Positions 37,401 to 50,507 of a DNA stretch of 64,000 bases are shown here, in pieces (positions within the stretch are counted from its first letter, which is position 1; each line of letters starts with the position of its first letter). Both the position numbers and the translations under genes were made by a program. The DNA lies in NCBI GenBank assembly GCA_016845365.1, contig JAERST010000024.1:1-64000 (forward strand). The letters are read 5' to 3'. The DNA is from Methanobacteriota archaeon (GTDB taxonomy: Archaea > Thermoplasmatota > Poseidoniia > Poseidoniales > Thalassarchaeaceae). Under the pieces are notes generated by a model. The model made no database searches, was not told where the DNA came from, and was given only the letters and a program-made list of their open reading frames with translations.

Positions 37401-40400
37401 ACATTGGACAACGCCGATGCGGACACAACTGCACTGGATGCAGGCGACTCAGTTGACGACGTGTTCACTCTAACCGTGAGTGACTCTTCCTCTGGCGAAT
37501 CTGACACAATGACCGTCACCATCACCGTAACCGGTGCTGACGACGATGTGAGTGCTGGAGCTGACCAGACTGGAGCGGTAACTGAGGACGCGAGCACATC
37601 AACCGCAACCGGCACAATTGCTGGAAGCGATGCAGATGATGCTTCCTCGCTCTCTTACAGTGGAGACGCAACCGGAACCTATGGTTCGATTGCCGTTGAC
37701 TCAAGCACTGGTGCTTGGACATACACATTGGACAATACCGATGCTGACACAACTGCACTAGATGCAGGTGATGAGGTCACGGACGCATTCACCATGACTG
37801 TCTCCGACAGCGCTTCGAGCGAAAGTGACACTATGACTGTCACAATCACCGTCACGGGTGCTAACGACGCGCCTGACGCAGGAAGCGACGCAACTGGTGC
37901 AGTCACTGAGGATGCAACCACAACCACGGCTACTGGCACTGTCTCCCCGACGGATGACGATGCTTCGGCAGCATTCACCTACAGCGGTGACGCAACTGGA
38001 ACATACGGTGCGATCGCAGTCGACAGCGCTGGTGCTTGGACATACACCTTGGACAATAGCGATGCAGACACTACTGCACTCGACGCAGGTGACTCGGTAA
38101 GTGACGCGTTCACTCTGACTGTATCAGACGGAACTGCCTCCGACACATTGACAGTCACTATCACCGTAACTGGTGCTGATGACGATGTCAGTGCTGGTGC
38201 TGACCAGACAGGCGCTGTGACAGAAGACGCAACGACAACTACTGCAACGGGAACGGTCGCAGGAAGCGATGCTGATGCAGATTCGGTGCTCTCGTACAGT
38301 GGAGATGCCACAGGCACATACGGTTCAATTGCTCTAAGTGGCGCAGATTGGACCTACACCCTGGACAATAGCGATGCAGACACAACTGCCCTAGATGCAG
38401 GTGACTCAGTAACTGATGCCTTCACCATCACAGTCAGTGATTCTGCCTCTGGTGAGTCGGACACAATGACTGTGACAATCACGATCTCTGGTGCTGATGA
38501 CGATGTCAGTGCTGGTGCTGACCAGACTGGAGCTGTAACTGAGGACGCAAGCACCTCGACAGCAACAGGAACAATCGCTGGAACTGATGCCGACGGTGCT
38601 TCGGCACTCTCGTACAGCGGAGATGCAACTGGAACCTACGGTTCGATTGCAGTCGTATCGACCACAGGTGTTTGGACCTACACATTGGATAACACCGATT
38701 CTGACACTACCGCACTAGACGCAGGTGACTCAGTCACAGATGTGTTCACAATGACAGTATCCGACAGTGCTTCGAGCGAATCTGACACCATGACGGTGAC
38801 AATCACAGTCACTGGTGCAAACGACGCTCCGAGTGCCGGAGATGATGCAACAGGCGCGGTAACTGAGGATGCTACGGCAACCACGGCAACCGGCTCGATC
38901 ACAGCAACTGACGACGATGCTTCGGCAGCATTCACCTACAGCGGTGACGCAACCGGAACATACGGATCGATTGCAGTCGACAGCGCTGGTGCATGGACAT
39001 ACACCTTGGACAACAGCGATGCTGACACCGATGCCCTCGCACACGATGGCTCGGGCACTGACACGTTCACTCTGACAGTATCCGACGGAACTGCATCAGA
39101 CACGATGACAGTAACAGTCACGGTCTCTGGTGCAAACGACGCCCCGACCGTTGCAACTGCTATCTCAGATGCAAGCACGGATGAGGATGCAGCATACAGC
39201 CTCGACATCTCGAGCAACTTTGCTGATGTCGACACTGGCGATGCTCTATCATTCAGCGCAACCGGCCTACCTACCACACTCTCGATATCTTCGGATGGTG
39301 TGATCTCAGGAACTCCGGTCAACGCAGATGTTGGAACACACACGATTGTAGTCACTGCAACTGATGATGCGACAACCGCTGGCTCAGTCACGGACACCTA
39401 CGTCTTGACTGTCGTCAACACTGATGACGCAACCACGGGTACAGTCACAATTAGTGGAGACGCATACGATGATGAGACGCTAACAGCCGTCACTAGTGAT
39501 TTGGCTGACGATGACGGATTGGGCACATTCACCTACCAGTGGGCTGACGCTGACGGAGATATCTCGGGAGCAAACAGCAGCACGTACACCATCCCATCCT
39601 GTGAGAGCACAGCGGTTTGCAGTTCACTTGGCAAGACCTACACTGTAACCGTCACTCACACTGATGCATACAGCGTCGTGCAGACAATGGATGCTTCCGC
39701 CGCTACCTCGGCAGTCACCCTCAACCCAGATGGTGACCTCGATGGTGATGGAATCATCAATAGCGCTGACACGGATGACGACGGTGACGGCTGGATCGAC
39801 AGCTCGGATGCCTTCCCAAGCGACTCAGACGAGTGGCTCGACACCGACTCCGATGGAATCGGTAACAACGAGGACACAGATGATGACGGCGACGGTGTCG
39901 CTGACGCAGATGATGACTTCCCAACCGATGCAAGTGAGCAGTGGGATGCTGACGGCGACGGCTGGGGTCACAATGCTGACGCAGACGATGACGGCGACGG
40001 AATCGAGGACTCAGTTGACGACGACGATGACGGCGATGGAGACCCAGATGCTACCGACCAATTCCCGAACAACTACAACGAGTGGGACGACACCGACTCG
40101 GATGGAATCGGTAACAACGCTGACACAGATGACGACGGTGATGGAGTTGAGGATGCAGACGACGCATTCCCACTCGACTCAACCGAGACTCTCGACACAG
40201 ACGGCGACGGAACCGGTAACAATGCTGACACTGATGACGACGGCGACGGATTCTCTGACGATGACGAGACCACCAACTGTGGTGAGGCTAACGACCCGCT
40301 AGACTCGGCTGACACACCAACCGACACCGACGGCGACATGTCTTGTGACACACTCGACGACGACGATGACGGCGACGGTGTGGTCGACGCAAGCGATGCA

Positions 40401-48556: not shown

Positions 48557-49147
48557 TCAACGCGAATCAAGCGCGTGATGAACAATCGTTACACACGCAT
48601 GTCCTTGCAACCAATCAGAGCCAACGCTAACTCGAGGCAGGCTCGCAGTGGCTTGAATTTCTGCCTCGTCCAAAGGCAAATGATCAGACAATAAGAAGCC
48701 AATTCGCTCACCCTCATCAACCGATTCTACAGGTTCACCGCCAGCATCGAGAACATACAATTGAACTCCTTCCCGCTCCCATTCCGCAAGCGTGTGAGAA
48801 AGTCCGCCCCCAGTATCGAAAATGCCCTGAGTGACTTCATCAAAAGTCCCGATTGCCGGCACAGGCCGCTTCAATATCGCCTTGATTTGCCCAGCAATCG
48901 ACCGCTCGTCCGGCCTCACGCCGGCGAGCGTTTCACCATTGAACCATATTCGACGGTCAGGCCCGGGGCCCCCGCATAGATGGAGTGTGATGTGGGTGTC
49001 TCGGCGGATGCCGTGGGATACGAAAAGAGCCGCGTTTACCGCCCTGATTAGCACATCCATTCGGCCTGAACCACCGGCTAAATCGTTGAGATTCAACTTG
49101 CCAGAACTCGGCGCGAGATGGCCGATGATGGCGAAGCGCCGTTGCAG
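48557..49147 (-). CDS. trmY: tRNA pseudouridine-54 N1-methyltransferase TrmY, with a non-standard start codon
   Basis: A SPOUT-class methyltransferase that makes N1-methylpseudouridine at tRNA position 54 in archaea. Typical blocks are SGRMDVLIRAVNAALFVSHGIRRDTHI, HLCGGPGPDRRIWFNGETL, VRPDERSIAGQIKAIL, and the C-terminal cofactor-knot segment RIGFLLSDHLPLDEAE. The longest frame with ATG, GTG or TTG begins at 49096 (TTG) and lacks the first strand. In the same frame further upstream the sequence reads QRRFAIIGHLAPSSGKLNLNDL, which is the family N-terminus. The frame is open to a TAG at 49171-49169 and contains no ATG, GTG or TTG there. CTG at 49147 (after GGTGAAATT) or ATT at 49150 must be used, unless the sequence has an error. 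The start lies 4 nt after the srp54 stop: one operon. Confidence 0.88.
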   Translation of the reverse strand: MQRRFAIIGHLAPSSGKLNLNDLAGGSGRMDVLIRAVNAALFVSHGIRRDTHITLHLCGGPGPDRRIWFNGETLAGVRPDERSIAGQIKAILKRPVPAIGTFDEVTQGIFDTGGGLSHTLAEWEREGVQLYVLDAGGEPVESVDEGERIGFLLSDHLPLDEAEIQATASLPRVSVGSDWLQGHACVTIVHHALDSR

Positions 49148-49151
49148 AATT

Positions 49152-50507
49152 TCACCCCATTCCGAGGTCTAAATCGTCGACGTCCATCATCGATTGCATC
49201 TGCCTTCGCATGCGTCTATCGCCCTTCATTCCGCGCATCATTTTGCGACTGCGATTCCATTGATTGAGGAGTTCCTTGACGTCCTTTTCGCTGGTGCCCG
49301 AACCTCGTGCGATGCGTCGGATTCGTTGGGATTTGAGTAGTAGCGGCTCGTCCTTTTCCTGCTGTGTCATCGAGTCCATAATCACCCGAAACTTCGCCAA
49401 ATTCGCCTGCATCTGCTTCTTCTGCCCTGCCGACATCGACCCCATGCCAAACATCCCATCAGGCAGGTGGGAAAGGATTCGGTCGACTGTTCCGATTCGG
49501 CTCATCATCTCCATTTGAGTGTACATGTCTGTGAGGGTGAATCTTCCAGACATTAGGCGCTGAGTGAGCCGAATCGCCTCTTCTTGGTCGAGATCTTCGG
49601 GGGCTAAATCGATTAGTCCTTGGATGTCGCCCATACCGAGAAGTCGAGAGATAAAACGGTCGGATTCGAACTTCTCGAGGTCGCCGACGCGTTCTCCTTC
49701 TCCGACGAATACAATGGGCGCGCCGGTTACTGAAACCGCGCTGAGAGCTCCACCTCCACGCGCTGTCCCATCGAGCTTGGTGACGATGGTTCCTGTGACT
49801 CCTACGAGGTCGTGGAAAGTCTGTGCGACCGGGCCGGCCGCTTGGCCGACTTGGGCGTCGATTACGAGGAATCGCTCGGTCGCATTTGCTATCTCAGCGA
49901 TGCGAACTAATTCATCGCGCAATTCTTCATCGAGGCTGTCGCGGCCGGCGGTATCGATGATGAGAACGTCTGCTGTTCCGACGGCCTTGATTCCGTTGCG
50001 GACGATTTTGGCCGGGTCTGTCTCGTCCGGTTCTCCATAGACCTCTACGGGTGAGTCCTCGAGCAATTGTTGCAATTGGGCGTAGGCCCCGGGCCGGTGA
50101 ACATCAGCCTCGATTACGGCGACTTTGACTCCGTGTTTGCGGCGCCACCATTCCGCAACTTTGGCGGTGGTGGTTGTCTTTCCTTGACCGTAGAGACCGA
50201 CCATCAAGACTGTCTCATTGTGAGGCTTGATGTCGCGAGCGGGTCCGAGAAGGCGGACCAGCTCGGTGTAAATGAGATTCATAGTGTGAGTATCGAGCTT
50301 TACTCCCGGCCGTGGTTCTTCTTCCATCAGACGGCGCTCGATGCGCTCGGTCAGCTCCTTGGCCTGTCTGACGTTGAAATCGGCCTCGAGCAGGGCTCGT
50401 CGAAGGGCGCGTGTCAATTCGCGCACCGTCTCCTCGTCGATCTCCCTCTTACCCGAGAGCAGGCCGACGGAGCCGAGGATTCTGCGCTTCAGACCCTCGA
50501 GTGCCAT
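49152..50507 (-). CDS. srp54: Signal recognition particle 54 kDa protein
   Basis: A 451-aa SRP GTPase that binds signal peptides and 7S RNA and docks ribosomes at the membrane receptor. The N domain is about residues 1-95 ([14 protein letters not shown]). The G domain has P-loop [13 protein letters not shown], the EADVHRPGA segment, DTAGRD and [11 protein letters not shown]. The methionine-rich M domain follows (about 310-451: [28 protein letters not shown], and the RNA-binding [14 protein letters not shown]). The order and length are standard. It precedes trmY in a two-gene operon and diverges from the unknown membrane protein at 50679. The window's many large exported proteins would be clients of this targeting route. 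Confidence 0.97.

Follow-up and report, generated by a model that had tools for sequence, protein, structure and literature searches.

Where does translation of a gene begin when its reading frame holds no ATG, GTG or TTG ahead of the conserved N-terminus of its protein family? The trmY gene considered here raises this question. It lies in the window, by which we mean the whole stretch of 64,000 nucleotides analysed (positions 1-64000 of contig C24 of an archaeal draft genome, 26 contigs, completeness 83.7), and the relatives of this genome are Thalassarchaeaceae and Poseidoniales records. An earlier sequence-only reading had proposed that initiation at this locus is non-canonical, perhaps by translational coupling to the upstream srp54 gene, and its claims were assessed by comparison of the trmY start region across the order.

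The trmY locus and its product

Re-reading of the coordinates and the frame on the minus strand confirmed that the trmY frame, closed upstream by a TAG (49171-49169), stays open to a stop TGA (48559-48557), and that no ATG, GTG or TTG occurs from that TAG to RRFAIIGH. The codons after the TAG end ...GGT GAA ATT CTG CAA CGG CGC TTC..., with the translation running I L Q R R F A I I G H, and from the in-frame TAG to the TrmY N-terminus the only NTG codon is the CTG at 49147-49145. Read from this CTG, the trmY coding sequence occupies 48557-49147 and comprises 196 residues and the stop. The first ATG, GTG or TTG of the frame was verified to be the TTG at 49096-49094, downstream of the first strand. 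Upstream of trmY and on the same strand, the srp54 ORF (49152-50507) ends with a TGA (49154-49152) that lies within GGGGTGA (49158-49152), a Shine-Dalgarno (SD) sequence ending 4 nt before the CTG; the GGTGA-like site that had been remarked over the srp54 stop is thus in place, with 4 bases from that stop to the CTG. At the other end of trmY, the plus-strand gene surE (end 48556) converges with it, with 0 bases between the two.

The CTG-started product matched Pfam PF04013 over residues 3-195 with 130.9 bits (gathering score 25.5), and the TTG-started product with 119.4 bits. Alignment with MJ1640 and AF1056 (structures 3aia and 2qmm) extended over the full length, from residue 3 or 4. As judged from these matches, the product is a clear member of the PF04013 SPOUT methyltransferase family. 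Since its score against the NCBIfam TrmY equivalog NF002560 was 160 bits, below the cut-off of 183, we call it a TrmY-family protein and not a proven equivalog; an enzyme of the latter kind would methylate pseudouridine 54 in tRNA. The best NCBIfam match of srp54 was ffh, with 385.9 bits, which is below the cut-off of 473.2.

The trmY start column among relatives

Searches of relatives at three ranks gave trmY matches in 14 of 18 genomes of the genus, 120 of 148 of the family and 239 of 292 of the order. We read 131 loci that included the N-terminus, 118 from the window's family (f1) and 13 from a second family (f2); L015, which covered the C-terminus only, was dropped, and G019, with a C-terminal match only, was not fetched. 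In the family, trmY was unmatched in 28 of the 148 genomes. Within genus g3, no match was obtained in G022, G023, G024, G026, G027 and G028 (completeness 67-89), and the trmY proteins found in this genus were 46-49% identical to that of the window. One in-frame stop was reported inside the trmY match in each of G095, G084, G232, G039 and G038.

At the position homologous to the window's CTG, the 131 loci carried ATG (39), CTG (31), TTG (24), GTG (13) or another codon (24), and all 24 of the last class had an ATG, GTG or TTG one codon away. An NTG in 107 of the 131 loci, with a shift of a single codon in the others, well supported the non-canonical initiation that had been proposed. The recommended comparison of start regions in related genomes likewise showed that CTG recurs, and the CTG is shared by the nearest relative, G013 (89% identical; likewise record JAQXEV010000013.1). 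Five f1 genera contained it, namely g1 (3/13), g7 (4/13), g9 (2/9), g10 (5/11) and g11 (17/23); none was found among the loci read from g2, g3, g4, g5, g6 and g8.

Over the 107 loci, the first base of the column had an entropy of 1.9 bits and the second and third were invariant, but this subset had been picked for NTG at that place, and the fair comparison is thus that of Leu codons. The Leu codons in the column of the 131 loci were CTG (31), TTG (24), CTA (1) and CTC (1), with a canonical start one codon upstream in both the CTA and the CTC locus. CTG and TTG therefore account for 55 of 57 (55 of 55 in the 107-locus subset), against only 247 of the 628 internal trmY Leu codons of the 31 CTG loci, which is more than chance would give. 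A weak codon is thus kept at this position in several species that have no usable canonical start. On these comparisons, non-canonical initiation is supported more firmly than the reading of a single sequence could show, and a start of trmY at the CTG 49147-49145 is strongly supported.

Three other readings of the locus had to be weighed against this one. An ordinary start further upstream, at the ATT or at an NTG inside srp54, or else a frameshift in srp54, would make the CTG a plain Leu codon. In 29 of the 31 f1 CTG loci the 7 codons that precede the Phe of RRF include no ATG, GTG or TTG, and in 16 of the 31 none lies anywhere from the in-frame stop to this Phe; with five f2 loci described below, 21 CTG loci lack any such codon up to the in-frame stop. 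The upstream reading can draw on 13 of the 31 loci, in which the only canonical codons stand 10 or more codons ahead of the Phe, within the srp54 reading frame, and on the two with a nearby alternative 2-3 codons upstream, G005 (GTG) and G079 (GTG and ATG). It is contradicted by seven genomes in which an in-frame stop abuts the start codon, so that neither an upstream start nor an srp54 frameshift is available there: TAG immediately precedes the CTG of G140 and G125, and TGA precedes the TTG of G011, G001, G012 and G004 and the GTG of G006. The same stops dispose of an srp54 fusion in these genomes, and the ATT at 49150-49148 was rejected as a conserved start since the codon at that place can be anything, in several relatives even TGA or TAG. 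Together with the Leu codon bias of the column, these data make an upstream start quite improbable.

Translation from the downstream TTG (49096-49094), which would yield a shortened TrmY, has in its favour that this is the codon chosen by a gene finder limited to ATG, GTG and TTG. Its column in the 131 loci is an ordinary hydrophobic position inside the protein (TTA 30, TTG 22, CTG 19, ATC 14, CTT 12 and others), and the conserved start at this place in relatives, which the sequence-only reading had named as evidence that would overturn it, did not appear. Ahead of the TTG, the first five codons following the Phe (+1 to +5) have nearly fixed first and second bases and a variable third base (107 loci), which indicates that this stretch is coding; this protein-level constraint on the first strand and the PF04013 match uphold the claim that the family N-terminus is encoded upstream of the TTG. 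Several CTG loci, moreover, have no ATG, GTG or TTG within 20 codons after the Phe, and we regard the TTG start as highly improbable. A sequencing or assembly error that turned a true ATG, GTG or TTG into CTG would be conceivable in a draft genome of this kind; the same codon nevertheless stands in 31 of 131 loci, the nearest relative included, and in 6 of 87 genomes of the second family. The recurrence of CTG in relatives of two families led us to reject error as a general account, and for the window itself it is improbable in the extreme.

For the codon history, a rapid maximum-likelihood tree was made from the trmY protein without the start columns. Switches between CTG and other codons numbered at least 11 on it, against 25-30 with shuffled labels (50 shuffles), indicating that CTG has been inherited in clades yet gained or lost on many occasions. 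Some close pairs differ, for example G069 (CTG) and G076 (TTG), and G138 (CTG) and G137 (TTG). On this tree, two g5 sequences (L040 from G045 and L041 from G048) fell among g1, and g7 separated into two groups that lie far apart and differ in their start regions; either transfer or misbinning may explain both placements.

Shine-Dalgarno sequence, srp54 and the second family

The 16S tail is ATCACCTCCT in the congeners G016 and G010; a search for the 16S of the window's own genome found none. SD strength was expressed as the pairing of the 18 bases before the start with AUCACCUCC, with which the SD of the window's trmY pairs at -10.6 kcal/mol. Pairing of -8.4 kcal/mol or stronger was observed at all 31 CTG loci (f1), 25 of 33 TTG, 3 of 13 GTG and 9 of 54 ATG loci, and GGTGA preceded the trmY start in 30 CTG, 26 TTG, 3 GTG and 6 ATG loci. 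From this SD to the CTG the spacing was 4 nt in 28 loci and 5 nt in 2 (f1). For other genes, 112 groups with 806 starts were inspected, 103 of them behind GGTGA, and the modal spacing was again 4 nt (45/103), so that the CTG is placed where a start would be expected. These other starts were ATG in 77 of 103 cases, against 6 of 65 trmY loci with GGTGA; trmY thus avoids ATG behind GGTGA and the other genes do not.

The association of strong SDs with weak start codons was pronounced when kinship was ignored (Fisher p 3e-14), but it vanished once phylogenetically independent pairs were compared on the trmY tree (median p 1; informative pairs were few), and the clade pattern of SD and start codon may reflect shared ancestry. 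A search for RNA structure at the trmY start found none (z -0.96; one sequence).

The srp54 gene lies upstream of trmY in 125 of the 131 loci, and the gap from its stop to the trmY start is 4 nt in 80 of these 125 and in 27 of the 31 CTG loci. The trmY start thus has both an SD at working distance and a short stop-to-start gap. Coupling to srp54, which had been offered as a possible basis of the unusual start, is partly supported by this constant distance and by the overlap of the SD with the stop. As the cause of the odd start codon it did not hold, since f2 has CTG starts at loci where trmY lies behind another gene.

For f2, 20 further loci and then the genera g13, g12 and g14 were read, giving 87 genomes without duplicates; L370 and L371 were skipped because they were C-terminal only. 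CTG occupied the start column in 6 of the 87, five from g13 (G162, G191, G214, G149 and G168) and one from g14 (G208). The five g13 cases have no ATG, GTG or TTG upstream of the CTG before the in-frame stop, and G208 has a TTG six codons upstream as a possible alternative start. The CTG of G162 and of G191 lies over the stop of the upstream gene, as CTGA behind GGAGG, and the C-terminus of that upstream gene is unlike srp54; going by its motifs, it may be CoaBC-like. No srp54 was found upstream of trmY in the four f2 loci searched (g12, g13 and g14). The protein from the G162 locus matched PF04013 with 86.8 bits. With both families pooled, CTG is present in 37 of 205 trmY loci. As a separate observation, ATT occupies the trmY start column in two g14 genomes, G272 and G304 (L352 and L353), with a TTG six codons upstream as an alternative start; in the other 17 members of g14 that were read, the column holds GTG, TTG, ATG or CTG.

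Gene specificity, mechanism and relation to known systems

To what extent CTG starts are peculiar to trmY was assessed in 11 genomes (six g1 and five g11), one contig each, amounting to 1,559,020 bases and 176 ortholog groups. When CTG was allowed as a start, a recognisable start column was present in 146 groups with 1,069 members, and members with a CTG and no canonical codon within eight codons were flagged. The 13 flagged members belonged to four groups: trmY (five), group 22 (six), group 158 (one) and group 157 (one). Groups 22 and 158 were rejected as CTG starts, since their Leu columns lie inside the aligned proteins, at a depth of 80-98 and 218-251 residues, and group 157 offered a candidate in a single genome, G005. 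The candidate is a small conserved ORF on contig C18 (plus strand, about 39727-40144) that reads CTG at a place occupied by ATG in three relatives; its frame holds no canonical codon further upstream, and this may be a second, sporadic CTG start. The trmY group of these 11 genomes had CTG in 7, TTG in 3 and GTG in 1, and none of the 145 other gene groups showed a conserved CTG start. Another test counted a group only if half or more of its members had ATG, GTG or TTG, so that trmY itself fell out; it found 4 CTG among 994 start-column codons, each with a canonical codon nearby. When ATT, ATC, ATA, ACG, AAG, AGG, CTC, GTA, GCG, TTA, GTC and GTT were put through the test that had allowed CTG, each gave 0-4 flagged members. 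A genome-wide habit of CTG starts was thus not found in the 11 genomes, and the conserved CTG start is specific to trmY within the sampled g1 and g11 contigs.

Taking these comparisons together, we consider it very likely that trmY is subject to gene-specific CUG initiation at 49147-49145 behind a strong SD, an arrangement that would hold TrmY output low. The SD GGGGUGA, lying over the srp54 stop and ending four bases before the CUG, would position the ribosome, and the ordinary initiator tRNA would then read the CUG and probably insert Met. The weak start is a property of trmY itself, since its first base drifts among A, C, G and U with the UG kept, and CUG recurs in two families. If srp54 and trmY share an mRNA, the likely effect would be much less TrmY than SRP54 from the common message. 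The weak CTG start thus probably keeps TrmY scarce, and a low TrmY dose may be what selection favours.

A tRNA of the window's genome (L268) has a CAU anticodon, A1-U72, a GGG/CCC stem and T54, and we take it to be the initiator from these features, as judged by eye against the rules for archaeal initiators. The genome gave 46 tRNA matches; among 30 of these together with contig C24, an incomplete set, no initiator tRNA with a CAG anticodon was found. In the same genome, ARAGORN reads L275 (G000:C1:115777-115922) as a CAU tRNA with a 73-base intron. For E. coli, PMC11497404 describes a structure with a C.U mismatch to the CAU anticodon in the P site, and a CUG output of 0.86% of that of AUG.

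A serious rival to selection for low TrmY output is that the weak start serves no purpose: behind a strong SD which srp54 encodes by chance, the start codon would matter little, and it would drift. The strongest SDs do stand at CTG and TTG loci, and the independent-pairs test gave no adaptive link, both as drift would predict. It would leave unexplained why other genes with GGTGA keep ATG so frequently, and why CTG recurs in f2, where no srp54 was found upstream in the four loci searched. On balance, drift behind a strong SD appears to us quite possible, if short of probable.

A more elaborate variant of low output would be that TrmY autoregulates through start-codon stringency, as an archaeal counterpart of IF3 and infC. 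TrmY would then act on position 54, either in the initiator tRNA or across the tRNA pool, the modification would alter the acceptance of CUG, and the CUG of trmY would in turn sense the TrmY level. Compatible with such feedback are the weak start that accompanies trmY in two families with differing upstream genes, the T at position 54 of the initiator tRNA, which is the base TrmY would act on, and the ATT in the start column of the two g14 genomes, for which the upstream TTG is an alternative. This idea seems to us unlikely.

A single gene that returns to CTG across an archaeal order would provide a natural test system for start selection by aIF1, aIF2 and the initiator tRNA, and for the trade-off between SD strength and start codon. 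In practical terms, gene finders limited to ATG, GTG and TTG will truncate or wrongly extend the trmY N-terminus in dozens of these genomes. No report of a conserved archaeal CTG start or of trmY start codons was found in the open literature searched, subscription journals lying outside its scope.

Among known systems, the TrmY family itself (PF04013; MJ1640 and AF1056) shares with the window's protein the full-length match and the N-terminal strand, and differs in that the latter falls below the NCBIfam cut-off and has no ATG, GTG or TTG start. Of the NTG codons, CUG serves least often as a start in prokaryotes. Near-cognate CUG is read by the initiator tRNA and SD strength tends to offset weak starts (PMC5622118, PMC11497404), CUG makes up 0.024% of bacterial start codons (PMC11497404), and CUG was gained at 2 of 61,358 ancestral AUG and 1 of 2,468 ancestral UUG starts (PMC5622118). 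The trmY case resembles these sporadic starts in the presumed use of the initiator tRNA and in the tendency to SD compensation, but they are rare and scattered, whereas trmY has CTG in 37 of 205 loci. A further likeness is to a single gene that keeps an abnormally weak start across species with a good SD adjoining. Such a gene is bacterial infC, encoding IF3, which reportedly starts at AUU, an observation credited to Butler in 1987. The two differ in that infC has AUU, against which IF3 itself discriminates so that a feedback loop arises, whereas the CUG of trmY is exchanged for UUG, GUG or AUG among relatives, its product is a tRNA methyltransferase, and feedback at this locus is only hypothetical.
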